From assembly GCA_018663505.1 (NCBI GenBank), contig JABJQG010000043.1, forward strand, positions 1-63,317: DNA of 63,317 nucleotides. The letters run 5' to 3'. Each line of letters starts with the position of its first letter. Position 1 is the stretch's first letter. The notes below the pieces were generated by a model. The model worked only from the letters and a program-made list of their open reading frames with translations, was not told the origin of the DNA and made no database searches. This DNA is from Pseudobdellovibrionaceae bacterium (GTDB taxonomy: Bacteria > Bdellovibrionota > Bdellovibrionia > Bdellovibrionales > UBA1609). Position numbers and translations under genes: made by a program. This document shows, piece after piece, positions 12,945 to 57,109 of this stretch.

Positions 12945-12971
12945 TACATTGTAGGTAATATTTGCCGATAG
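12945..12971 (+). promoter_or_regulatory. Sigma28-type promoter upstream of the FlgT-like gene
   Basis: TACATTGT, 11 bases, GCCGATAG: 5/8 and 7/8 matches to the TAAAGTTT-N11-GCCGATAA flagellar promoter consensus. It is 68 bases before the GTG start at 13039, leaving a plausible leader with an AAGGAAGG ribosome site. Confidence 0.6.
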
Positions 12972-13038
12972 GTACTATAGCTAAGGAAGGCTAATAAAAT
13001 ATCTAAGGAAGGTCTGTTTGCCAAGGAAGGGGTAAATC

Positions 13039-13578
13039 GTGCAAAAGACTCTATTAGCTGGATTTTTAATGCTAGCTCTATTCATAAGTAAAAACTCAAT
13101 GGCTGGGAATAACCTGTTGGTGTTTGATGTGAAAAAATCTCTACCACTATCGGATAAAGAAACTGTTTATAAGGATTTTTATATTAATGGTGGTGACGAA
13201 TATGGTTTAAGACCAGGAATGCTTGTTACCGTTTATAGAAGTAAAGCCATGTATGATAATTACAGTAACAAGTCTGCAGGGGATTTAAAAATATTCGTAG
13301 GCCGTTTAAAAATAATTCATGTGCAAAATGGCCTAGCCGTTGCACGAATGTTTTCAACACTTTCTAGAAAAAGATTACCCATATTAGAATATACAACCAT
13401 TATGGTAGGCGATCGCTTAGACATGAACACTCTGGAGATGGATCGTGGTTCAAAGAAAAGAAAATCAGCCCATAAGAAGAAGCCAACGGCACCAAAGCCA
13501 ATGAAACAAGAGATGGAGCAGGTTTCTATGAACTTGCAAATGCCAGATAAGCCTGTGCAGATGCCTAATATGCAGTAA
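13039..13578 (+). CDS. Secreted protein with FlgT C-terminal-like domain
   Basis: A 179-aa protein with a Sec signal (LLAGFLMLALFISKNSMAG). Residues ~45-130 (FYINGGDEYGLRPGMLVTVY ... VGRLKIIHVQNGLAVARMFS ... YTTIMVGDRLD) follow the pattern of the FlgT C-terminal domain (glycine-initiated beta barrel: G-x-x-x-G-LxxGM, then GxLxIxxV). FlgT is an outer-membrane-side flagellar ring protein in polar flagellates. The tail is Lys/Pro/Met/Gln-rich. The sigma28-type promoter just upstream supports a flagellar role. GTG start with AAGGAAGGGG upstream. Full-length FlgT is larger, so this is not called flgT. Confidence 0.72.
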   Translation: MQKTLLAGFLMLALFISKNSMAGNNLLVFDVKKSLPLSDKETVYKDFYINGGDEYGLRPGMLVTVYRSKAMYDNYSNKSAGDLKIFVGRLKIIHVQNGLAVARMFSTLSRKRLPILEYTTIMVGDRLDMNTLEMDRGSKKRKSAHKKKPTAPKPMKQEMEQVSMNLQMPDKPVQMPNMQ

Positions 13579-18873: not shown

Positions 18874-19009
18874 CGGGCTTAAGAGCAGTTTTGGTCTATG
18901 GGCTACTACTCAGAACCTTATAAAATTTTTTAGCTAAAATATTTTTTATCAAAAGGGCTCTGTAAGACCTATGTCCCTTTTAAAAGTGCAGTTAGAGTAA
19001 GGTATTTAA

Positions 19010-19051: not shown

Positions 19052-19882
19052 CTAGAAGTTAAGTAGTCTTAGTGCAGAGTTTCCATTTTGGTTTGCACTA
19101 GCAAGGACTCCAATAGCTGCTTGCTGTAAAATACTGGCTGAAGTTAATTCAGCAGTTTCATGTGCCACATCGGCGTCACGAATTCTAGATTTTGCTGCAG
19201 AAAGATTTTCATACTGGATGTCTAGGTTACTTACAGTTACTTGTAATCTAGATTGTACCGCACCAAAATCAGCTCGCATTTGACCTAATTTTTCAATGGC
19301 AGCATCAACTGACCCAAGAGTATCCCTTGCGCCGGACTTGTCTGAAAGGTCCACACCATCAATTCCTAATGTACCGATCGTTGCATCAGCTTCAATATTG
19401 TACTTAATTATGTTTTCCTCACCAGAGAAAGGACCCACATGGTACTCCAGTTCTTCGCCGGCTCCATTTAACAGCTGTTTATTTCCAAATCTTGTAGACT
19501 GGGCAATACGCTCAGATTCCTCAATTAATTGAGTTGCTTCTTGATTTAAAAAGCCACGTTCCACTTCAGAAACTGTATCTGACGCCGCTTGTACACCTAA
19601 TTCTCTTAAACGAATTACGATATTATTAATCTCATTTAAACCACCCTCACTCACTTGAATTAATGATTGAGCGTTGTAAGCATTGTTTCGTGCTTGTTTG
19701 ATACCAACAACCTGGCCTCTAATATTTTCAGAAATCGCTAAACCAGCGGCATCATCAGATGCTTGTACGATTCGACTCCCAGATGCTAATGCTGCTTGAG
19801 CATGTTCCATCCGTTTTTGGTTAGTTGTTAATTGCCTTTGCGCGTTCAGTGACGCGGTATTTGTGTTAATTCTTAAGCCCAT
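19052..19882 (-). CDS. fliC: Flagellin (copy A)
   Basis: Filament subunit. The protein starts MGLRINTNTASLNAQRQLTT and has the conserved N-terminal D0/D1 block (GSRIVQASDDAAGLAISENI, NAQSLIQVSEGGLNEINNIV, RLRELGVQAASDTVSEVERG) and C-terminal D0 (SRIRDADVAHETAELTSASI, ending ALRLLNF). At 276 aa it lacks a large variable D2/D3 domain. The ATG at 19882 is preceded by AAGGGG and gives the canonical start; upstream in-frame ATGs at 19912 and 19909 are ignored. A sigma28-type promoter lies 235 bases upstream, giving an unusually long leader. Confidence 0.96.
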   Translation of the reverse strand: MGLRINTNTASLNAQRQLTTNQKRMEHAQAALASGSRIVQASDDAAGLAISENIRGQVVGIKQARNNAYNAQSLIQVSEGGLNEINNIVIRLRELGVQAASDTVSEVERGFLNQEATQLIEESERIAQSTRFGNKQLLNGAGEELEYHVGPFSGEENIIKYNIEADATIGTLGIDGVDLSDKSGARDTLGSVDAAIEKLGQMRADFGAVQSRLQVTVSNLDIQYENLSAAKSRIRDADVAHETAELTSASILQQAAIGVLASANQNGNSALRLLNF

Positions 19883-20110
19883 AGTAAGCCCCTTTACAAA
19901 CTGCTTCATCATAAAACAAACTTTGGCCCCTAACTTTTCGCCCTATGCAAAAAACCATAAATCAAAGCACAATCCATTGTGGTTAATAATGTGTTTGTGG
20001 AGTGTATTTCCTTAAAAAAATGTGACTGCACTTTTTTATGGGAAACTCTTTTTTGGACTCATTGTAGTGACTGCTAAAATGAAACCTTAAAAGGTGCTCC
20101 AACATGTTCA
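19883..20110 (-). promoter_or_regulatory. Long 5' leader of flagellin A
   Basis: If transcription starts at the sigma28-type promoter 20117-20143, a ~228-base untranslated leader precedes flagellin A. Its first bases (20111 down to 20086) read TTGAACATGTTGGAGC then ACCTTTTAAG, complementary to a stretch in the leader of flagellin C (28073-28099). No reading frame of note is present. The remainder up to 20394 holds the flagellin B terminator and otherwise nothing clear. Confidence 0.55.
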
Positions 20111-20116
20111 AGTACT

Positions 20117-20143
20117 ATCTCGGCGAAGGTCTAGTTTTCTTTA
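20117..20143 (-). promoter_or_regulatory. Sigma28-type promoter of flagellin A
   Basis: On the minus strand: TAAAGAAA, 11 bases, GCCGAGAT (5-6 of 8 in each half against TAAAGTTT-N11-GCCGATAA, with TAAAG intact). Two GGTCTAG boxes lie at 20128 and 20151. Confidence 0.7.
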
Positions 20144-20394: not shown

Positions 20395-21222
20395 CTAGCT
20401 TAAAAGCATAAGAGCATTTCTTGCTCCACTATTAGCTTGGGCCAAAACGGAGACTCCAACATCCTGAAGAATCTGCCCTTTAGTGAGTTTAGTGATTTCA
20501 TCAGCAAAATCTACATCAGCAATAATCGATCGTGCAGACTCAATGTTTTCATATTGGGATGAGAGATTATCAATAGCGTATTGAAAGCGACTTTGTATGG
20601 CCCCAAAGCTGGACCGGGCATCCATCACACCTAATAATGCCTCATCAATGGAGTCTAAGGAGTCTTTTGCACTACTTTGGTCCAGAACGCTGAGGTCAGC
20701 AATGCCAACCTCTTGGGAGGTGGTATTTGCCTCAAGTTGAAACTTTATTATATTCTCTGGTCCTTTAAATGCTCCCACATGGAACTCAAATTCCTCATTT
20801 GTGCCCACGAGCATCTTTTTGCCACCATATCTGGCAGATTGAGCTATTCGATCAAATTCAGCGTTGAGCTGAGTAAATTCCTTTTCCAAATACTCTCTTT
20901 CATTGTCTCCAATAGTATCACTGGCCGACTGAACAGAGAGCTCTCGTAAGCGAATCAAAATATTATTTTGTTCATTTAAGCTACCTTCAGCGGTCTGTAT
21001 AAAGGATACAGCGCCTTCGGCATTAAATTTAGCCTGTTTTATGCCAGAAAGTTGTGATTTTAAACTTTGGCTGATTGCAAATCCCGCCGCATCGTCGGCA
21101 GGGTCCGACACTCTAGACCCAGAACCAAGGGCTTTTAAAGCCTTGTCCGTAATTCTCTGGGCATTTCCCAAATTTCTCTGTGCCACCAAGGCAGCCACGT
21201 TGGATGATATTCTAAAACTCAC
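20395..21222 (-). CDS. fliC: Flagellin (copy B)
   Basis: A second flagellin, 275 aa, with start SFRISSNVAALVAQRNLGNA, N-terminal block GSGSRVSDPADDAAGFAISQ and SLNEQNNILIRLRELSVQSA, and C-terminal SARSIIADVDFADEITKLTK ... ANSGARNALMLLS. It is more divergent from copies A and C than they are from each other (for example SQSLKSQLSG, DEALLGVMDARSSFG), so it may form a distinct filament segment. The GTG at 21222 is chosen because GGAGGTGCAAA precedes it and the usual flagellin N-terminus begins there. Confidence 0.95.
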   Translation of the reverse strand: MSFRISSNVAALVAQRNLGNAQRITDKALKALGSGSRVSDPADDAAGFAISQSLKSQLSGIKQAKFNAEGAVSFIQTAEGSLNEQNNILIRLRELSVQSASDTIGDNEREYLEKEFTQLNAEFDRIAQSARYGGKKMLVGTNEEFEFHVGAFKGPENIIKFQLEANTTSQEVGIADLSVLDQSSAKDSLDSIDEALLGVMDARSSFGAIQSRFQYAIDNLSSQYENIESARSIIADVDFADEITKLTKGQILQDVGVSVLAQANSGARNALMLLS

Positions 21223-21318
21223 TTTGCACCTCCCGTTAATTTCGTTCAAGCCATTCACGAAATCAATTTGGTGCCCATAGACCTTTTATTTTTAGTTTCA
21301 TTTTAACAGTCGAGCATA

Positions 21319-21345
21319 CTATCGACACATCGCGTCAATACTTTA
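21319..21345 (-). promoter_or_regulatory. Sigma28-type promoter of flagellin B
   Basis: On the minus strand: TAAAGTAT, 11 bases, GTCGATAG; 7/8 and 6/8 matches to the flagellar consensus. It predicts a leader of about 90 bases. Confidence 0.75.
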
Positions 21346-21391
21346 AGCTTATTTTTGAATTAAATGTAAGTGTCTGTAATTAGAGCTTATA

Positions 21392-27734: not shown

Positions 27735-28191
27735 CTGTAAGAGTCTTTAATCGTAAAGGCTCGGTTTAAACAGCACACTCACATACAAAAGTCTGATGAC
27801 TTAAAGTCTTAGTTATAAAAGTCTTAAGACTTTAGAGAGCTTGCGACGCATGTCCAGTATATTACACCAACAAACATCCCGATATCAATACCAAGGTCTA
27901 GTTAACGCGCGACCATGGTCTAGTTGTTCTAGACTGTCCTTCAGTCTTACAGGACCTCGCCGAAAGAGGTGTTGTAAGTATTGCAACTGGTCTTTAAGAC
28001 CTAAAACAAAAGTCGAGTTAATTCTTTGAGTGACTGCGAAGATTAGCATAAAAAATTGATTTTTATTTTTGTCTTAAAAGGTGGTTTCAACATGTTCAAC
28101 CCAGCACACGATGTGTGATTTTCAGACTGAGCCTTGTAGGAAGGACACTGAAACTATTGAAATGGATATCGCAACAACAAAGGAGTCTATT
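27735..28191 (+). promoter_or_regulatory. 457-bp upstream region and long leader of flagellin C
   Basis: No gene is supported here; a 62-codon frame at 27841 has no recognisable content. The region holds a perfect AAAGTCTTAAGACTTT palindrome (~27817-27834) surrounded by repeated AAGTCTT units, three CTAG-centred boxes (GGTCTAG at 27895 and 27917, CTAGAC at 27929), a sigma28-type promoter (27940-27966), and a ~219-base leader. The leader contains the conserved motif 28073-28099 shared, inverted, with flagellin A and several GGA motifs (GTAGGAAGGAC, ATGGATATC, AAAGGAGTC) of the kind bound by CsrA. Confidence 0.6.
27940..27966 (+). promoter_or_regulatory. Sigma28-type promoter of flagellin C
   Basis: TTCAGTCT, 11 bases, GCCGAAAG; 5/8 and 6/8 matches to the flagellar consensus with exact spacing. 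Start of transcription would be near 27973, 219 bases before the ATG. Confidence 0.62.
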
Positions 28192-29025
28192 ATGCCATTA
28201 ACTCTAACCACGAATCTAGCGTCAATTAACGCTCAGAAATCTATGGCCAAAACAGAGAGAAATCTTGATAAAAGTTTTTCACAACTTTCTTCAGGATCAA
28301 GAATTACAAAAGCTGCTGATGATGCCGCAGGGTTATCTATCAGTGAAGGCTTACAATCTACAATCAGAGGTTATGGACAAGCTCGTCGAAATGCCAATGA
28401 TGCTATCTCTATGATTCAAGTATCAGAGGGTGGGTTAGGTGAAGTCAGTAATATTTTAACACGTCTAAGAGAGTTAGGTGTGCAAGCCGCTTCAGACACC
28501 GTAGGGCAAGACGAAAGAGGCTTTATAGATAAAGAAGTTCAACAACTAAAAAATGAGGTACAGCGTATTGCTGAATCCACAAGATACGGAAATACAAAGT
28601 TATTAGATGGTTCAGGAGAAGAATTTTCTTTTCAAGTAGACATCAATAATGATGATTTTCAAGATAGAATTGGCTTTGATGCTTCGGCTCAAGAGGCCAC
28701 GCTCAGTGCATTAGGTATAGATGGTTTTGATTTTTCAGATAAGACAAACGCAAGAGAGTCTTTGGAAGTTCTAGAAGGAGCTCAGAAAAATGTAAACGGT
28801 CATCGTGCCACACTTGGTGCCTTGCAAAACAGACTTATATCAACAACAGAGAACTTAGGTAGCGCAATAGAAAACTTTTCTGCAGCGAACTCACGAATTC
28901 GTGACACAGATGTAGCACAAGCTTCTGCTGAACTTGCTAGAAATAATATTTTAAAAGCAGCTTCCGTGTCAGTTATGGCACAGGCTAATGCAAGTCCATC
29001 ACAAGCACTTAAATTAATTGGATAA
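28192..29025 (+). CDS. fliC: Flagellin (copy C)
   Basis: A 277-aa flagellin beginning MPLTLTTNLASINAQKSMAK, with GSRITKAADDAAGLSISEGL, MIQVSEGGLGEVSNILTRLR and ELGVQAASDTVGQDERGFID, and a C-terminal NSRIRDTDVAQASAELARNN ending ASPSQALKLIG. The ATG at 28192 has AAAGGAG just upstream; an in-frame GTG at 28081 would add 37 unrelated residues. Unlike copies A and B it is on the plus strand and precedes flaG-fliD-fliS. A weak hairpin (CCCAGAG/CTCTGGG, ~29089-29114) follows. Confidence 0.96.
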   Translation: MPLTLTTNLASINAQKSMAKTERNLDKSFSQLSSGSRITKAADDAAGLSISEGLQSTIRGYGQARRNANDAISMIQVSEGGLGEVSNILTRLRELGVQAASDTVGQDERGFIDKEVQQLKNEVQRIAESTRYGNTKLLDGSGEEFSFQVDINNDDFQDRIGFDASAQEATLSALGIDGFDFSDKTNARESLEVLEGAQKNVNGHRATLGALQNRLISTTENLGSAIENFSAANSRIRDTDVAQASAELARNNILKAASVSVMAQANASPSQALKLIG

Positions 29026-48980: not shown

Positions 48981-49520
48981 ATGAAAAATAGATTCTATAA
49001 CTTTGAATTAAAGCCTTTTCATATTACAGGACGTATTCAATTAACAGATTTAAAAGATACACATACATTGGATATATGGAATTTTTTTCTTTGTGAATTT
49101 AGAAAGCAAAGTGAACAGAATACTCTTAAGTGGGTATCTTTTGTTTTAATGGGGACTCACTTTCATATCTTGTGCTATCCACAAGATAAAGCAGTGGGTG
49201 AAATAGGCGAACACTTTAGTGTTAGCGGTGGCGAGAGTTTTAAACTTAGAAATGTGGAGTTTTATAAAATTGATAATATTAAATATTATCACACTGTTTA
49301 TAAATATATCTACAGAAACCCTGTTGAGGCAGGGCTATGTAAAAGTGCTGTAGATTATCCATATAGTAGTCTCAATAGTATTGTAAGGGGAAGCCCACAA
49401 AGCTGTGTGTTTGATGATGACATGCATTTGATTTTTAATCCCAAAAAGGTAGTTGAGTGGATTGATACTGATTTTTCTGAAGATTCTTATCAGAAGTGCG
49501 GATATAGCGTAATTATGTGA
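48981..49520 (+). CDS. REP-associated tyrosine transposase (RAYT / Y1_Tnp-like)
   Basis: An HUH single-strand DNA transposase of the IS200/TnpA_REP superfamily. The HUH motif is in VLMGTHFHILCYPQ, and the catalytic-Tyr helix in YHTVYKYIYRNPVEAGLCKS, followed by DYPYSSLNSIV, which is the RAYT C-terminal pattern. 179 aa, close to full length, with no frameshift. It stands alone, as RAYTs do, and is flanked by a hairpin 3' (49559-49594) and a small one 5' (GGAACTATGTTCC, ~48882). RAYTs mobilise short palindromic elements, so it is a candidate partner for repeats in this window. Confidence 0.87.
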   Translation: MKNRFYNFELKPFHITGRIQLTDLKDTHTLDIWNFFLCEFRKQSEQNTLKWVSFVLMGTHFHILCYPQDKAVGEIGEHFSVSGGESFKLRNVEFYKIDNIKYYHTVYKYIYRNPVEAGLCKSAVDYPYSSLNSIVRGSPQSCVFDDDMHLIFNPKKVVEWIDTDFSEDSYQKCGYSVIM

Positions 49521-50775: not shown

Positions 50776-50802
50776 TTAAGTAGTTGGTGAAAGAGCCGAT
50801 AA
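50776..50802 (+). promoter_or_regulatory. Sigma28-type promoter of the giant prepilin cluster
   Basis: TTAAGTAG, 11 bases, GCCGATAA. The -10 half is a perfect 8/8 match to the flagellar consensus and the -35 half 5/8 with exact spacing; it ends 37 bases before the first ATG. Confidence 0.75.
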
Positions 50803-50839: not shown

Positions 50840-53083
50840 ATGAAAAATTTTGAAAACACTAAAGGATTTTCCCTCATGGAGGTCATGGTCTCCATTGGGA
50901 TCATGAGTATTGTCAGTTTAGGTGTGACAAGTTTGCTAGTGAAAACTAACCAAGAGGTAAAAAAAGCAAATGTAAAATTGCTGGCAAACAGTATACTTGT
51001 ACAAGTACAGTCCTATGTTAAAAATGATAGAATTTGGTCATCATCAAGAAACAATTCAGGAAATGCTAACTCAAATGGAAGTAACGGGCTTAACAACACA
51101 CAGAATTCTTTTTATTGTTTAGATAATCCTGGGGTATGCACTAAAACAGCAAAACATTTTGTACTATACAGCTCCTCAGGTAGTTTAAATAGTAACTTAA
51201 CCTCAACAGCAACTGATCCTGATCTTCGAGGTTTTGATTTAAATGGTTTACCATGCTCTAGCTATGATGCGGTTAATGGAAATGATAATTGCCCTTTTGG
51301 CCTTACACTTACATTTACTCCACTTTGTGCCGGAAATAGCTGTAGTAGTAACAACTCTACTGCTATTCGCATTGACGGTTCGCTTAAGTACAAACCCAAT
51401 AGTTCAAATTTAAAAATGGCGATGAATGAATCATTCTTAAAATTCTCCTTGCTGCGTCACCCTTCAGCTGTAGAGAGTGATGTTGAACGGATTTGTGAAG
51501 AAGATTTTGCGGGCAATTGGCTTGATGGTATATGTCATCTAAATACACAATCAATTTGTGAGAGTTTGTTTGGTGTATGGGGCGGTAACACATGCACTAG
51601 CTTACAAAGTTCAGCAGGAACATGTAGTTCTATTGGTGGTGTGTGGACGGGTATTGGTAATGGGCAAAGTGCGTGTGTTATTCCTGCTTTGACAGATACT
51701 TGTAAGGAGCTGGGTGGAACGCCAGAGTATGTGGGTGTGAACTCTACATTTTCCTGTGCCAATTTGAGCTATAACACTGTGACTAATACTAATGGCAACA
51801 GTGAAGTCAAAAAAATCTGTGAAAAGCTAGGTGGAGTTGGAACTTTTTCTAGCGCTTCATTGAATGCGGCGGCCAGTTGTGACCTCTCAGGAATGTATGC
51901 AACTAGCTTTGAAACAACTTGCAAAGCAGTCTCCGACGGAGGGAATGGTGGTCGTATTGTTGCAGATGCTAGTGTACTAGGTGGAAAATACTGCATTTGG
52001 GATGATAGTGTTTTAGATACTAAATTAAAAAATTTCTGTGAGGGTTTAGATCAGAATATTTTAGGAACAGGTGTGTCCGCATCCACTGGACTTTATGATG
52101 CTAATACAAAAGACTGTTCATTTTCCATGGTTCATGCCATAGACAATATTAAAATTGCTTCTGACGTGAAAAAAGTTTTTAGTGAGGATTTTGCGACTCC
52201 CAATACGGTGAATCACACGTTAGGGTCCGCTAGATGCCAAGATGGTTATTACATGCAAGGGTTTGATAGTAATGGTGTTCCAATCTGCTTTGAATACTTG
52301 CCGTATGTATGTACTCCCACATGGGCACCTTCTCCTGAAAACACATGCACCACAGGAACAATAACTCAGACCGATGGGTGTGGTGGAAGTCAGACTGTGA
52401 GTGGGACAAAAGTTTGTAGTACTTGCTCAACTACTAGTACACCACAAGTATATAACCTGACTAGCACCCCTCCTTCTCCTAAGTTATGTATAGGTCAACA
52501 ATATATGACTAACCTAAGTAATACTCTTCCAAATCAATGCGCAGAAACTGGGGCACTAGTATGCGAGTCTTCAGCTGGAGCTTTTGTCAGCAGAAGAAGC
52601 ATTGGCTTTAATAATTCCAGATGGTTAAATACTTGTGTGTGCTCTACTTATTTGGGCACGGGAACACATACAGAGTCTGATTGCACTACAGATGGTGGTG
52701 TTGTTAAGAATGCGGAATCTGGAGTAAAAGTATGCGCATTTCCGGCTGATTTTACAAATCCTGCTTTTGGACCCTGTATTTTCACTGAGGGGCTAGGTGG
52801 AGCTGAATGTACTAATATTTGTCCCACAGGTTGGTCAAAATATTCGGGTTGGATGGAAACTGCAGATAGAACCTGTAATGAAAATCCTGACTCAAATGAT
52901 GTTGCTAATTGTGGTATAACCACTTGCACTGCTACAGGTCAAAATTGGAGTAACCATTCAATCCGAAACACTTGTAACTACCAAGGTCGTCAAGGATTAT
53001 TTATTCCAACACCAACAAGTCCATGTGGAATAGTAGCGAATATAGCCTGCAGATCAAGTTATAGAAGTATGGGGTGTCATTAA
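50840..53083 (+). CDS. Giant cysteine-rich type IV prepilin-like protein 1 (747 aa)
   Basis: The N-terminus is a type IV prepilin signal, FENTKGFSLMEVMVSIGIMS, with cleavage expected after G9 and Glu at +5. The following helix anchors it in the membrane. The rest is several times longer than ordinary pilins, has many cysteines and repeats of the type CxxxxGxWxxxxCxLNTxxxCxxLLGxW and GGVWxxxxxxxxC, then a C-terminal CPTGWSKYSGWMETADRTCN region and IACRSSYRSMGCH end. It is the first of three paralogs. Type II secretion/pilus minor subunits are the nearest class. Likely a surface adhesin carried by a pilus; function is inferred. Confidence 0.85.
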   Translation: MKNFENTKGFSLMEVMVSIGIMSIVSLGVTSLLVKTNQEVKKANVKLLANSILVQVQSYVKNDRIWSSSRNNSGNANSNGSNGLNNTQNSFYCLDNPGVCTKTAKHFVLYSSSGSLNSNLTSTATDPDLRGFDLNGLPCSSYDAVNGNDNCPFGLTLTFTPLCAGNSCSSNNSTAIRIDGSLKYKPNSSNLKMAMNESFLKFSLLRHPSAVESDVERICEEDFAGNWLDGICHLNTQSICESLFGVWGGNTCTSLQSSAGTCSSIGGVWTGIGNGQSACVIPALTDTCKELGGTPEYVGVNSTFSCANLSYNTVTNTNGNSEVKKICEKLGGVGTFSSASLNAAASCDLSGMYATSFETTCKAVSDGGNGGRIVADASVLGGKYCIWDDSVLDTKLKNFCEGLDQNILGTGVSASTGLYDANTKDCSFSMVHAIDNIKIASDVKKVFSEDFATPNTVNHTLGSARCQDGYYMQGFDSNGVPICFEYLPYVCTPTWAPSPENTCTTGTITQTDGCGGSQTVSGTKVCSTCSTTSTPQVYNLTSTPPSPKLCIGQQYMTNLSNTLPNQCAETGALVCESSAGAFVSRRSIGFNNSRWLNTCVCSTYLGTGTHTESDCTTDGGVVKNAESGVKVCAFPADFTNPAFGPCIFTEGLGGAECTNICPTGWSKYSGWMETADRTCNENPDSNDVANCGITTCTATGQNWSNHSIRNTCNYQGRQGLFIPTPTSPCGIVANIACRSSYRSMGCH

Positions 53084-53084
53084 T

Positions 53085-54905
53085 ATGAAAAAGATAACTA
53101 CACTCCATTATTTATTCAATTCAAAAGGTTTCTCCTTAATGGAAATTATGGTTGTCACAGGTGTAATGTCAATAATGAGCGCTGGTGTTGCTAGAATGAT
53201 TAGTAATATGAATACTGAAAATAAAAAGATTATAATAAAAACAACAGCTCAATCGGTACTTTCATTGGTAGAATCTCAGATGAAAAGTGATCATATTTGG
53301 ACAGCCACGAGAAATAACGCTGGGAATGATGGGTCGGCAGCTGTGCAAAACACAGAATCCTTTTATTGTTTTGATGAAGGGACAAACTGTACTACTACTC
53401 CAAAACATTTTATTTTGTATAGCTCCAGTACAGAAGTTAATAGTAATTTGAGCTCAGATGCTGCGGACCCTGACTCTAGAGGTTTTGATTATAATGGTGT
53501 GCCGTGCTCCACTTACGATGTTAATGGGGATGACGGTTGCCCATTTCAGTTAAAATTAACTTATGTTCCAAGTTGTAATAATGTGGCCTCCTGTACTGTT
53601 GGGAATTCTAGTATAACCATTACTGCAGCTATAACATATAGCCCTGCGAGTGAGCGATTAAAAGTGCCTATGAACTCCAATGGATTAAAAATTGTTCGTT
53701 CTCGTGGTGCTTCGACTGTGGCAACTTATCCTGAAAGAATATGTGAACATTTTAGAGGAAGATGGGATGGATCTAACTGTCGGTTAAATACAGAGAATGT
53801 GTGTAGAGATTTACTGGGATCATGGGATGCCAATTTAAATCGTTGTTCTACTGTACAAGGTTCAGCTAGTCTCTGCACAGAAGTTGGTGGTGTGTGGAAC
53901 CACTTTGGAAATAATAAATGCAATTTTCCAGGATTAATAGATATGTGTAAAGAGATGGGAGGAACTCCTGCTCAAAATGGTAACTTTCAATTTGTATGTA
54001 ATGGCCTGAGTTCTACTGCAAACAGTACCACAAGCGTTTTCAAAAACCTCTGTATAGTTATGAAGGGTAGTTTCACCGATGCTACAGCTACCACAGCCAG
54101 TGTTTGTGATACAACTAATTTATATAACAATGCATTGACCACAACTTGCACGCAAAATGGGGGGAAAATTGTGGTGGATGCTTCAGTGTATGGAGGCAAG
54201 TTTTGTGTTTGGGATCAAAACAACTTAGACCTTCGCCTTCAAGACTTGTGTGCAAATTTAGATAACCAGATTTCTGGTTTAACAGTAAATAATGGTTCAG
54301 GTGTCTATGATGGGACAAATTGTTTGTTTAGTGTTTCCCATGATGCTGATAATATCCGGCAGGACACTGACGTCACAACAGTGTATAATGCCGCGACAGC
54401 TGCCCCAGCGCCTAATGCTGTGGGTACTGCAAGGTGCTCCCCAGGGTTTCACTTTAATGGATTTTACAACAATGGAATGCCTGTTTGTATTCAGCTTCCT
54501 GTTACTGGGCCTAGTGGGCCTCAGTTTTCTGATTGTTCGGCATCCATTGTGATGCTTAACCGCGGAATGAGAGATAAAGATCTTGCATGGGTTAACACAG
54601 TTGTGACTGGGCAAGAGTCGCTTTTGGGTTGGGGAGGTTCAAAACATGTTACTCTTCTTAACGGACAGAAATACCTGTTACCTATCACAAAGCACGGTTT
54701 AAAAGTAAAAATTTTAGACTACGCTGGCTTTGTCAATGCAAATGCAAATTACCCGGGTTATCTAGAGTATTCTAACTTTTTATCAACTCCTCGTTGGATG
54801 AGTAGTCTTGTAAGATTAAATGTGGCACTACCTGCGCTAACAAATATTACTGACTCATTAACTGTACATACATGTAATAATGGTACCTGGGAGAAAACTC
54901 CATGA
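53085..54905 (+). CDS. Giant cysteine-rich type IV prepilin-like protein 2 (606 aa)
   Basis: Prepilin signal NSKGFSLMEIMVVTGVMSIM, cleavage after G15. It starts one base after the previous stop. It is paralogous to its neighbours across the N-terminal and central Cys-rich parts (for example RICEHFRGRWDGSNCRLNTE, VGGVWNHFGNNKCNFPGLID, MCKEMGGTPAQNGNFQFVCN) but ends differently, with GWGGSKHVTLLNGQKYLLPI and a short CNNGTWEKTP, so it lacks the C-terminal SxW/CxxGW domain of copies 1 and 3. Domain swapping at the C-terminus is suggested. Stop overlaps the next start by 4 bases. Confidence 0.85.
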   Translation: MKKITTLHYLFNSKGFSLMEIMVVTGVMSIMSAGVARMISNMNTENKKIIIKTTAQSVLSLVESQMKSDHIWTATRNNAGNDGSAAVQNTESFYCFDEGTNCTTTPKHFILYSSSTEVNSNLSSDAADPDSRGFDYNGVPCSTYDVNGDDGCPFQLKLTYVPSCNNVASCTVGNSSITITAAITYSPASERLKVPMNSNGLKIVRSRGASTVATYPERICEHFRGRWDGSNCRLNTENVCRDLLGSWDANLNRCSTVQGSASLCTEVGGVWNHFGNNKCNFPGLIDMCKEMGGTPAQNGNFQFVCNGLSSTANSTTSVFKNLCIVMKGSFTDATATTASVCDTTNLYNNALTTTCTQNGGKIVVDASVYGGKFCVWDQNNLDLRLQDLCANLDNQISGLTVNNGSGVYDGTNCLFSVSHDADNIRQDTDVTTVYNAATAAPAPNAVGTARCSPGFHFNGFYNNGMPVCIQLPVTGPSGPQFSDCSASIVMLNRGMRDKDLAWVNTVVTGQESLLGWGGSKHVTLLNGQKYLLPITKHGLKVKILDYAGFVNANANYPGYLEYSNFLSTPRWMSSLVRLNVALPALTNITDSLTVHTCNNGTWEKTP

Positions 54906-57109
54906 TAACTACGATTATTGCCAAATTATTAAATCGAAAAAATAAGAAATCTTGTGAGCGTGGCTTCTCAATTATGGAAGTAATGGTTACTACTGGAATC
55001 ATGGCGATTATTAGTGCGGGTATGGCTAAAATGATTACAAACATGAGTGTTGATAACAAAAAAGCACTTATAAAGAGTACTGCTATTTCAATTATTTCCA
55101 GAGTGGAGTCTCAGGTTAAAAGTGATTATATTTGGGAGTCCACTAGAGGCAACCCAAAAAATGATGGAAACGGGCAAGTAAAAGGTGGAGAGTCTTTCTT
55201 TTGTTTAGATACTGATAATAGTTGTAGTAAAAACCCTAGGCACTTTATTTTGTATAGTTCGGCCACTGATACAACAAGTAATTTATCTTCGGATGATCCT
55301 AATCCTGCGAACCGAGGTTATAATTTTTCAGGAGAGGCGTGTTCAGGGTTTGATGCTATAAATGGTAATAATGAGTGCCCCTTTCAGATGACTTTGACTT
55401 ACACACCAGTGTGCACAAATAATGGGAACTGTGTTTTATCTGGTACAGATATAAGAATAGAAGCTAGCTTGAAATATAAACCTGCTAGTAGAAAGTTTGA
55501 GATTCCATTTAATTCAAGTAGGTACCAGTTCTCATTTTTAAGAGGATCAGGAACATCAGGCAACTACTCAGAGCAGGCATGTAAACAACTACAGGGAGTC
55601 TGGGATGGAAATCAATGCAAACTGAACACAGCTAGTGTTTGTGCTGATTTATTGGGGACCTGGAATGGAACCCTGTGTACAGCAACAGTGAGTCCGGGAG
55701 CATCTTGTGGCAGCATAGGAGGAGTATGGAGCGTGGGTACAAGTACTTGCTCTTTTCCGGGTTTAGATTTGGTGTGTACAGAGATGGGTGGGACACCTGC
55801 TTTAGATGAGAATTTAAAGTTTATTTGCAATGGTTTAAGCTCAAATTCAGGCGGAGCATTTGGTTTTTCAGGAGTTAGTAATTTACAGAAAATATGTACT
55901 ACCCTAAAAGGCACATTTATTTCTGCTGGAGCAGGGGCAGCGAGTTGTGATTTTAGTAACCATTATAGTACTGCATTAACCACAGAATGTTTGGGGAATG
56001 GAGGTGCTATTGCAATAGACTCTTCTGTATTTGGGGGGAAGTATTGTGTGTGGAGTGAGAGTAGTTTAAATGTAAAATTAGAAAATTTTTGTAAAAGTCT
56101 AGATGACAAAGTAACGGGACTTCAAGTGAGTGCAGGGTCGGGGACTTATAATTCAGCTACGGGGTCTTGTAATTTTGGTCTCACTCATACTAACGATAAT
56201 ATCAGGGCTGACACTCATGTAAAACGTGTGTATGATTCTCCAACAAATAGTTTGGCTGTAAATGCTGTGGGTTCAGCAAAGTGCGACACGGGTCATTATC
56301 TAGAAGGCTTTGACAGTAATGGCAAGCCAATCTGCATTCAAGTACCTGAGCCAGCAGGGCCAGGGAATCAAGGCTCTAGCTGTGTTGAAAAAACTGTTTT
56401 ACGGGCGAAACTCATTTATACTGAAACGTGGGTACCAGGTATGTTTGGTATGGCTACTATAAAAGTAGAATGGAAGTCAGTGGACTACATATTAGAGGCA
56501 AGTAACCATGGGGACATCGTTGGATTTCCGAGTTATAATTTCCCCATTGGTTCGGCTCCAGCATCAAATGGGTATACTTACCGGTTCGAAAATAACGCCC
56601 ATATATGGGCGTTTTATGGAATCTCAAACAACAGTATTATTAAGCCTCAGCAACTTTATTACACTTGTGATAACGGAAGTTGGGGCTCGTCCTGGCACGA
56701 TCTTCCCACAGGAGTCCTGGGCAACCTAAGGCAATTAGTGAATAGTGTACATTCCGATGTTGATTGTTCGGATATGGGCGGAGTGGCCACAGACATTGGC
56801 AATGGATCACTTATTTGTAAATTTACTAATAATAATACATGTCAAGTGGGAGGAACGTTTGCAAGCCCTGCCCATTCCCCTTGTGGGAAATGCCCATCAG
56901 GTTGGACTCAGTATGGTAACTGGTCACAATCTACTGCAACAACCTGTAATGCAAACCCCACCTGTGGAACCACCTGTACAACAGGAAGCCATAGCTGGAG
57001 CGAAGCTGTTCAGGAAACCTGTTCTTACACGAACAGATTTGCATATTCAGGCTGCACACCAGTGAATATCACTTGTTTAGCTGCTACCACATCTATAGGG
57101 TGTTATTAA
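54902..57109 (+). CDS. Giant cysteine-rich type IV prepilin-like protein 3 (735 aa)
   Basis: Prepilin signal CERGFSIMEVMVTTGIMAII, cleavage after G21, longer basic leader than in copies 1 and 2. It shares the Cys-rich central repeats (VCADLLGTWNGTLC, GGVWSVGTSTCSFPGLD, CTEMGGTPALDENLKFICNG) and ends with CPSGWTQYGNWSQSTATTCN then TCLAATTSIGCY, like copy 1. It overlaps copy 2 by 4 bases, so all three are one operon. A terminator follows. Interpretation as copy 1. Confidence 0.86.
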   Translation: MITTIIAKLLNRKNKKSCERGFSIMEVMVTTGIMAIISAGMAKMITNMSVDNKKALIKSTAISIISRVESQVKSDYIWESTRGNPKNDGNGQVKGGESFFCLDTDNSCSKNPRHFILYSSATDTTSNLSSDDPNPANRGYNFSGEACSGFDAINGNNECPFQMTLTYTPVCTNNGNCVLSGTDIRIEASLKYKPASRKFEIPFNSSRYQFSFLRGSGTSGNYSEQACKQLQGVWDGNQCKLNTASVCADLLGTWNGTLCTATVSPGASCGSIGGVWSVGTSTCSFPGLDLVCTEMGGTPALDENLKFICNGLSSNSGGAFGFSGVSNLQKICTTLKGTFISAGAGAASCDFSNHYSTALTTECLGNGGAIAIDSSVFGGKYCVWSESSLNVKLENFCKSLDDKVTGLQVSAGSGTYNSATGSCNFGLTHTNDNIRADTHVKRVYDSPTNSLAVNAVGSAKCDTGHYLEGFDSNGKPICIQVPEPAGPGNQGSSCVEKTVLRAKLIYTETWVPGMFGMATIKVEWKSVDYILEASNHGDIVGFPSYNFPIGSAPASNGYTYRFENNAHIWAFYGISNNSIIKPQQLYYTCDNGSWGSSWHDLPTGVLGNLRQLVNSVHSDVDCSDMGGVATDIGNGSLICKFTNNNTCQVGGTFASPAHSPCGKCPSGWTQYGNWSQSTATTCNANPTCGTTCTTGSHSWSEAVQETCSYTNRFAYSGCTPVNITCLAATTSIGCY

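Follow-up and report, generated by a model that had tools for sequence, protein, structure and literature searches.

Coevolving complementarity among flagellin mRNA leaders of the Bdellovibrionales suggests base pairing in trans

The kissing-loop antisense systems ColE1 RNA I/RNA II and R1 CopA/CopT pair cis-encoded complements of one locus. In OxyS-fhlA a dedicated small RNA, acting with Hfq, pairs in trans with an mRNA leader and makes loop contacts. An interaction between two mRNAs has been described for the hly 3'UTR and the prsA2 5'UTR of Listeria monocytogenes (reviewed in PMC7821165), and in E. coli the sRNAs UhpU, MotR, FliX and FlgO are derived from UTRs and are sigma28-dependent (PMC10578931). 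In B. bacteriovorus, most of the attack-phase promoters that have been mapped are FliA (sigma28) promoters of the form TTAAG-N16-CCGATA (PMC3627812). Bdellovibrio assembles one filament from six flagellins in the fixed order FliC3, 5, 1, 2, 6, and RNA control is not discussed in the passages searched of the paper reporting this (PMC2791853). In the open-access literature searched, we found no paper explaining how Bdellovibrio flagellin amounts and order are set, and no report of pairing between flagellin leaders.

The window analyzed here, the whole 63,317-nt stretch of contig JABJQG010000043.1 from a Pseudobdellovibrionaceae genome, contains open reading frames for flagellin A (FlaA; minus strand, 19055-19882, ATG at 19882; orthologues in relatives 70-84% identical), flagellin B (FlaB; minus strand, 20395-21222, GTG at 21222) and flagellin C (FlaC; plus strand, 28192-29025, start at 28192). 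The flagellin promoters have the TAAA/TTAAG-N15-16-(G)CCGATA-like form by which the sigma28 regulon is recognized. The FlaA promoter, TAAA-N15-GCCGAGAT (20117-20143, minus strand; predicted start ~20113-20110), fits the FliA consensus of B. bacteriovorus, TTAAG-N16-CCGATA (PMC3627812). A sigma28-like promoter, TTAAAG...GTCGATAG (21319-21346, minus strand), precedes FlaB at a position equal to that in relatives, and the sigma28-type promoter of FlaC (27940-27966, plus strand) has its -10 element GCCGAAAG at 27959. In B. bacteriovorus kdesi the A and C genes form an adjacent pair near fliD. No Rfam family matched the window at the gathering threshold, an Rfam search of L176, L142 and L150 returned tRNAs only and no leader family, and a search of a phage collection gave no match.

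Several other features of the window were recorded. A leader at 12945-13038, between a sigma28-like promoter (GCCGATAG) and the ORF at 13039, has three spaced (C)TAAGGAAGG-like repeats, an arrangement resembling the several GGA sites of a CsrA-type regulator. The interval 50840-57109 encodes three large proteins in tandem, which are related to one another and have N-termini like those of type IV prepilins; a sigma28-like promoter (GCCGATAA) at 50776 precedes the first. Small transposase-like ORFs, by eye of the REP-associated type, occur at 48981-49520 and in L176 (11006-11662), where one transposase-like ORF lies between the two flagellin genes.

An earlier note on this DNA, made from the sequence alone, had described two shared segments separated by 3-4 variable bases near FlaA and in the FlaC leader. 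Both copies were located on the plus strand, at 20086-20111 (CTTAAAAGGTG-CTC-CAACATGTTCAA) and 28073-28099 (CTTAAAAGGTG-GTTT-CAACATGTTCAA). The motif had these 2 matches in the window (expected mean 0.00 in 100 dinucleotide shuffles) and only the same 2 in the whole 3.78 Mb genome; its exact form had 0 matches in 57 related genomes. The shared segments are antisense to each other in the FlaA and FlaC transcripts. Given the position of the FlaA promoter, ~6 nt from the beginning of the segment, and the predicted start, the FlaA message should begin with about UUGAACAUGUUGGAG, and hence with the reverse complement, in agreement with the note. Measured from the predicted start, the FlaC leader is roughly 215 nt long and has its copy ~100-125 nt in; the whole linear duplex has a predicted energy of -34.6 kcal/mol. 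The note's pairing over 11+12 bases held in part: of the two arms, only the one of 12 nt shows conservation throughout the order, the 11-nt arm CTTAAAAGGTG being confined to this lineage. On the FlaA side this extension is CACCUUUUAAG (20086-20096, minus strand), complementary to the FlaC copy identified by motif match at 28073-28083 (plus strand), and L142 and L162 have different extensions where the CTTAAAAGGTG arm sits.

The conserved part consists of the FlaA 5' box UUGAACAUGUUGGAG (20097-20111, minus strand), whose GUUGGAG half doubles as the 5' strand of a helix in the FlaA leader (P1), and of the FlaC box CAACAUGUUCAA (28088-28099, plus strand), with the order consensus CUCCAACRUGUUCAACC. 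The nearest named genomes in the set are Bdellovibrionales/Pseudobdellovibrionaceae metagenome assemblies, and the set reaches Bdellovibrio bacteriovorus (kdesi, L176). Complementarity of the FlaA mRNA 5' end to a mid-leader FlaC box is present in 37 further genomes from the order. When FlaA +1..+45 was scored for ungapped complementarity to the FlaC leader in genomes with both genes (n = 38), own partners summed to 1339 and genome-shuffled partners to 1026 ± 25, with a maximum of 1126 among 5000 shuffles; the match was nearly always 6-15 nt past the FlaA promoter. These shuffles leave relatedness in place; identical shuffles of control regions gave values near zero. The 12-bp core had 415 Watson-Crick and 14 G-U pairs in 444 cells (fixed windows, 37 genomes), the FlaC box window being the best-scoring one chosen in each leader. 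Divergent boxes still matched their partners, for example UAAGUAAGUUGGAG/CUCCAACUUACUUA in G041, GUUACUUGUUGG/CCAACAAGUAAC in L182 and UGAACAAAACGG in L154, so that the search of relatives' flagellin leaders proposed in the earlier note found complementarity kept even where the sequence had changed.

Across 36 genomes (L188 was omitted from the joined alignment because its 16-nt window was misplaced; its true box match is UGUACACGUUG), the linear helix was 93.7% paired, and 12 of its 14 pairs had changes on both sides. Among the ten best core pairs (linear helix columns 25-34), one-sided changes comprised 8 G-U and 0 A-C, which fits RNA and not DNA. This pattern bears on the alternative raised in the earlier note, an inverted protein-binding site, taken here as DNA sites of a regulatory protein close to the two flagellin promoters. 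The core AACATGTT is indeed a dyad in the source genome, and the FlaA copy lies at the transcription start. The FlaC copy, however, is 100+ nt inside the leader, and the dyad is not conserved (AACATGTT becomes AACGTGTT, and CATG becomes CGTG, in most relatives). A protein site is further disfavoured by the absence of A-C changes, by a second contact made of two hairpin loops with covarying stems and by still another complementary segment in FlaB, and we regard it as very improbable.

FlaC leaders of relatives follow the layout sigma28 promoter, GAGUGACUGC, ~45-75 nt, CUCCAACRUGUUCAACC, hairpins and Shine-Dalgarno, and FlaA leaders have GAACACGUUGGAGCA directly past the promoter, followed by CAGCAGUCACUG, GGGUCAGUCACCC and CUCCAAC. 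The FlaA message thus bears complements of both conserved FlaC elements. Two other roles for the FlaC box were considered and rejected, namely masking of the FlaC Shine-Dalgarno (z 0.0; neither box overlaps it) and pairing with a conserved cis partner downstream (z 0.2).

The second conserved contact, absent from the earlier note, is between GTGACTGC at 28030-28037 in FlaC and GCAGTCAC in FlaA. The FlaC hairpin CUUUG-AGUGACUG-CGAAG (28024-28041, plus strand) presents the loop heptamer GUGACUG (28030-28036), which faces CAGUCAC (20028 to 20022) in the loop of FlaA hairpin P3 (20014-20037, minus strand). With 8-nt loops complementary over 7 nt, and outer stem pairs 75-76% paired with covariation, the two hairpins satisfy the definition of kissing loops. 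The heptamers were Watson-Crick complementary in 257 of 259 cells (fixed windows, 37 genomes), compared with 236.5 ± 2.0 for permuted partners, and the kissing helix was 99.2% paired (36 rows). Compensated variants occur in separate lineages (GUGAUUG/CAAUCAC, GUGACUA/UAGUCAC, GUGACGG/CCGUCAC and GUGACAG/CUGUCAC). Wherever the FlaA loop differs from CAGUCAC (11 genomes), the FlaC leader lacks GUGACUG (11 of 11); 9 of these leaders hold a new 7-nt complement, and the remaining 2 (G043 and L154) retain all but one of the 7 loop pairs. For L154, L169, L171 and G043, the FlaC loop was chosen with the FlaA loop already known. In the joined alignment of both contacts (36 rows), 89.1% of cells were paired and the covariation score was 0.379, compared with 0.157 ± 0.010 when shuffled and a maximum of 0.131 when slid. 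Compensatory double changes are numerous in the two contacts alike, over genomes ranging from Pseudobdellovibrionaceae-type MAGs to Bdellovibrio bacteriovorus. The proposal of the earlier note that the FlaA leader pairs with the FlaC leader is supported by this covariation and by the large excess of own over shuffled partners, although the support is an evolutionary signature only.

The same data speak to the possibility that an inverted repeat was kept alike through recombination between the flagellin loci, without any RNA function. FlaA and FlaC are paralogues ~8 kb apart on opposite strands, as that account would have it, but most relatives have the A and C genes in the same orientation, the matched tracts of 7-16 nt are too short for usual gene conversion and their flanks differ. 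Separate tracts also match separate partners, and G-U wobbles and 7-nt loops that covary alone contradict recombination, which we consider the least plausible of the explanations weighed here.

The consensus fold of the FlaA leader comprises P1, formed by the 5' GUUGGAG with CUCCAAC ~100 nt on, P2 with the loop CAGUCA (20060-20085, minus strand) and P3 with its 8-nt loop. The default consensus fold (model R1) paired the FlaA 5' strand otherwise, and a model with P1-P2-P3 (R2) was used instead; it was 86.1% paired, with a covariation score of 0.356 versus 0.184 ± 0.019. P1 covaries (GUUGAAG/CUUCAAC in L142, GUUGGUA/UACCAAC in L172 and GUUGGGAA/UUUCCAAC in L182), and as a cis helix it is supported by position but only weakly by permutation (z 1.1). 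Its 3' strand in the window (19998-20002, minus strand) is CUCCA, giving only 5 bp, where relatives have CUCCAAC. The segment after P3 as an anti-Shine-Dalgarno was suggestive only (z 2.3).

This fold is also relevant to the possibility of a plus-strand antisense RNA over the FlaA 5' end, which would be a second FlaC-type element with a cis effect on FlaA. Read on the plus strand, the FlaA region does resemble the conserved FlaC element (GTGACTGC ... CTCCAACATGTTCAA). A conserved sigma28 promoter is nevertheless directed into FlaA, the P1/P2/P3 fold with its G-U pairs suits the sense strand, and an antisense RNA would not account for the covariation with FlaC, a distant gene; we accordingly give such an RNA very little credence.

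A covariance model of the FlaA domain found one copy each in 61 of 140 genomes of the order, representing 38 genera. The source genome had 1 significant copy, the second place reaching only E 0.39. In 8 extra genomes picked by this model alone, the FlaC box matched in 8 of 8 and the P3 loop in 7 of 8, the exception being G026, which is without the P3 loop and in which P2 could substitute. The model detected no FlaA domain in genera g20 and g30 (G019, G031, G039 and G045), and the FlaC-like leaders sampled there lacked both elements, orthology being less certain in these genera.

RNA-level conservation alone leaves the partner unnamed, and the FlaA and FlaC leaders might both pair with a third RNA, such as a small RNA, and not with each other. 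Attack-phase small RNAs are abundant in B. bacteriovorus (PMC3627812). There is, on the other side, no third copy of the motif in the source genome, and genomes with the FlaA domain have a single copy of it. As the FlaA and FlaC boxes are mutually complementary, a third RNA could match both only by carrying both strands. Such a partner is unlikely but cannot be excluded.

To survey pairing between the flagellin mRNAs, own-genome complementarity was scored among the 5' leaders and 3' flanks of FlaA, FlaB and FlaC. The only strong signals between different regions were FlaA5-FlaB5 (z 14.9), FlaA3-FlaB5 (z 8.3) and FlaA5-FlaC5 (z 7.9); control pairings of the same regions gave z ~2 or less. Initial signals for B5-B3 (z 4.4) and B3-C5 (z 3.4) were discarded, as the 220-nt window after FlaB had reached the FlaA leader; with this window trimmed to 100 nt, they dropped to 1.1 and 0.5. 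A FlaC 5'-3' contact is possible (C5-C3, z 3.2); a conserved GUAGGU hairpin occurs in FlaC-class leaders (e.g., L021, L023 and L146) and a complementary UACCUAC hairpin in the 3' flanks of several FlaC-like genes (L013, L020 and L033).

The FlaB 5' end (GUGACUGCUGAAAUGAAC), directly past the FlaB promoter, is complementary to the loop and 5' arm of FlaA P2. In the window, the FlaB element is CGACUGUUAAAAUGAAAC (21295-21312, minus strand) and its FlaA counterpart lies at 20085 to 20069. The contact was 94.2% paired over 16 bp, with double changes in 11 of 12 varying pairs (31 genomes), as in L154 (UGACUAUAAACGACC/GGUCGUUUAUAGUCA) and L163 (UGACUGCUAAAUGAACCA/UGGUUCAUUUAGCAGUCA). Downstream of the FlaA gene, the 3'UTR hairpin GAGUAGU-loop-ACUGCUC (18883-18911, minus strand) has a loop, generally GCCCACAGACA, that is complementary to FlaB UGUCUGUGGGC (z 9.5); in the window the pair is GCCCAUAGACC (18903 to 18893) and GGUCUAUGGGC (21273-21283, minus strand). 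The FlaB GGUCUAUGGGC element adjoins GCACC, which faces GGUGC at the FlaB Shine-Dalgarno, and the adjoining segment is complementary to the Shine-Dalgarno region with z 3.0. With this arrangement, pairing with the FlaA 3'UTR could open the FlaB start, which is an inference. The observation of the earlier note is confirmed and is part of a larger pattern, with a second conserved FlaA-FlaC contact and FlaB as a further partner.

The 3'UTR hairpin in the window is followed by CUUAAGCCCGCCC and a terminator. The layout of loop GCCCACAGACA, then UUAAGCCCGCCC, then terminator is repeated behind FlaA genes throughout the order, and UUAAGCCCGCCC is conserved in its own right and unexplained.

Sequence comparison establishes that flagellin mRNAs are complementary at several sites and that this complementarity is conserved and coevolves. 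The complementary segments, which lie in transcripts of different protein-coding genes and are kept by compensatory change, have the properties expected of trans mRNA-mRNA pairing. Matching untranslated-end sequences have changed together over evolution, and we consider it highly probable, on these comparisons, that the leaders of the three sigma28-transcribed flagellin mRNAs base pair in trans, i.e., that the messages stick to one another. That the mRNAs physically pair inside the cell is inferred, as are the order in which contacts form and any consequence for expression.

Under this reading of trans pairing, the FlaA 5' leader (~115 nt) would be the receptor, its first ~16 nt forming the 5' strand of P1, which would enclose P2 and P3. 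The 8-nt loop of the FlaC hairpin (A-GUGACUG) would meet the P3 loop CAGUCAC over 7 nt, and this kissing is inferred to nucleate first. The single-stranded FlaC box CUCCAACRUGUUCA, ~45-75 nt past the loop and complementary to the FlaA 5' end, appears to mimic the 3' strand of P1 and to extend it, a feature that strand invasion following loop contact would predict; it may then invade P1 from the free FlaA 5' end, giving a trans helix of 12-16 bp, longer in the window. In parallel, the FlaB 5' end would pair with the P2 loop and arm, and the FlaA 3'UTR loop with the FlaB leader element adjoining the Shine-Dalgarno complement. The inferred outcomes are that FlaA stability or translation is set against FlaC supply, that FlaA mRNA opens the FlaB start and that paralogous flagellins are produced in ratio or in order. 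With the FlaC box off the FlaC Shine-Dalgarno and FlaA P1 at the extreme 5' end, effects on FlaA stability or folding are likeliest for the FlaA-FlaC contact; translational activation, likewise inferred, is best assigned to the contact with FlaB. A still broader picture, to which we give an even chance, is a self-organising flagellin mRNA network with FlaA as hub, whose 5' leader and 3'UTR would contact the FlaB and FlaC leaders via separate coevolving sites, so that mRNA-mRNA contacts, without a dedicated regulator, may determine the supply of several flagellins and their order within one filament.

This offers a base-resolved hypothesis for flagellin amounts and order that is testable by mutant and compensatory mutant. 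If true, it would be a rare conserved example of structural-gene mRNAs regulating each other via their leaders, and the several independent compensatory changes make flagellin leaders a useful test set for RNA-RNA interaction prediction.

Like ColE1 and R1, the FlaA-FlaC contacts combine 6-8 nt loops complementary over 7 nt with a longer duplex; in those systems the partners come from one locus, whereas the flagellin partners are separate genes sharing contact sites only. An antisense pair of that type, encoded on opposite strands of one locus, was rejected for FlaA and FlaC, which are ~8 kb apart and on one strand in most relatives. OxyS-fhlA is similar in its loop contacts in trans to an mRNA leader and differs in that both flagellin partners are mRNAs. 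The E. coli UTR-derived sRNAs likewise represent sigma28-controlled, UTR-derived base-pairing control of flagellin, but they are processed and act on the fliC coding region, whereas here whole flagellin leaders would pair (PMC10578931). The hly-prsA2 case, in which two protein-coding mRNAs pair in trans via untranslated regions, resembles the FlaA 3'UTR-FlaB leader contact in joining a 3'UTR to a 5'UTR; it concerns one pair of unrelated genes, whereas the flagellins are three paralogous structural genes in a putative network kept across an order, with additional loop-loop contacts between two 5' leaders.
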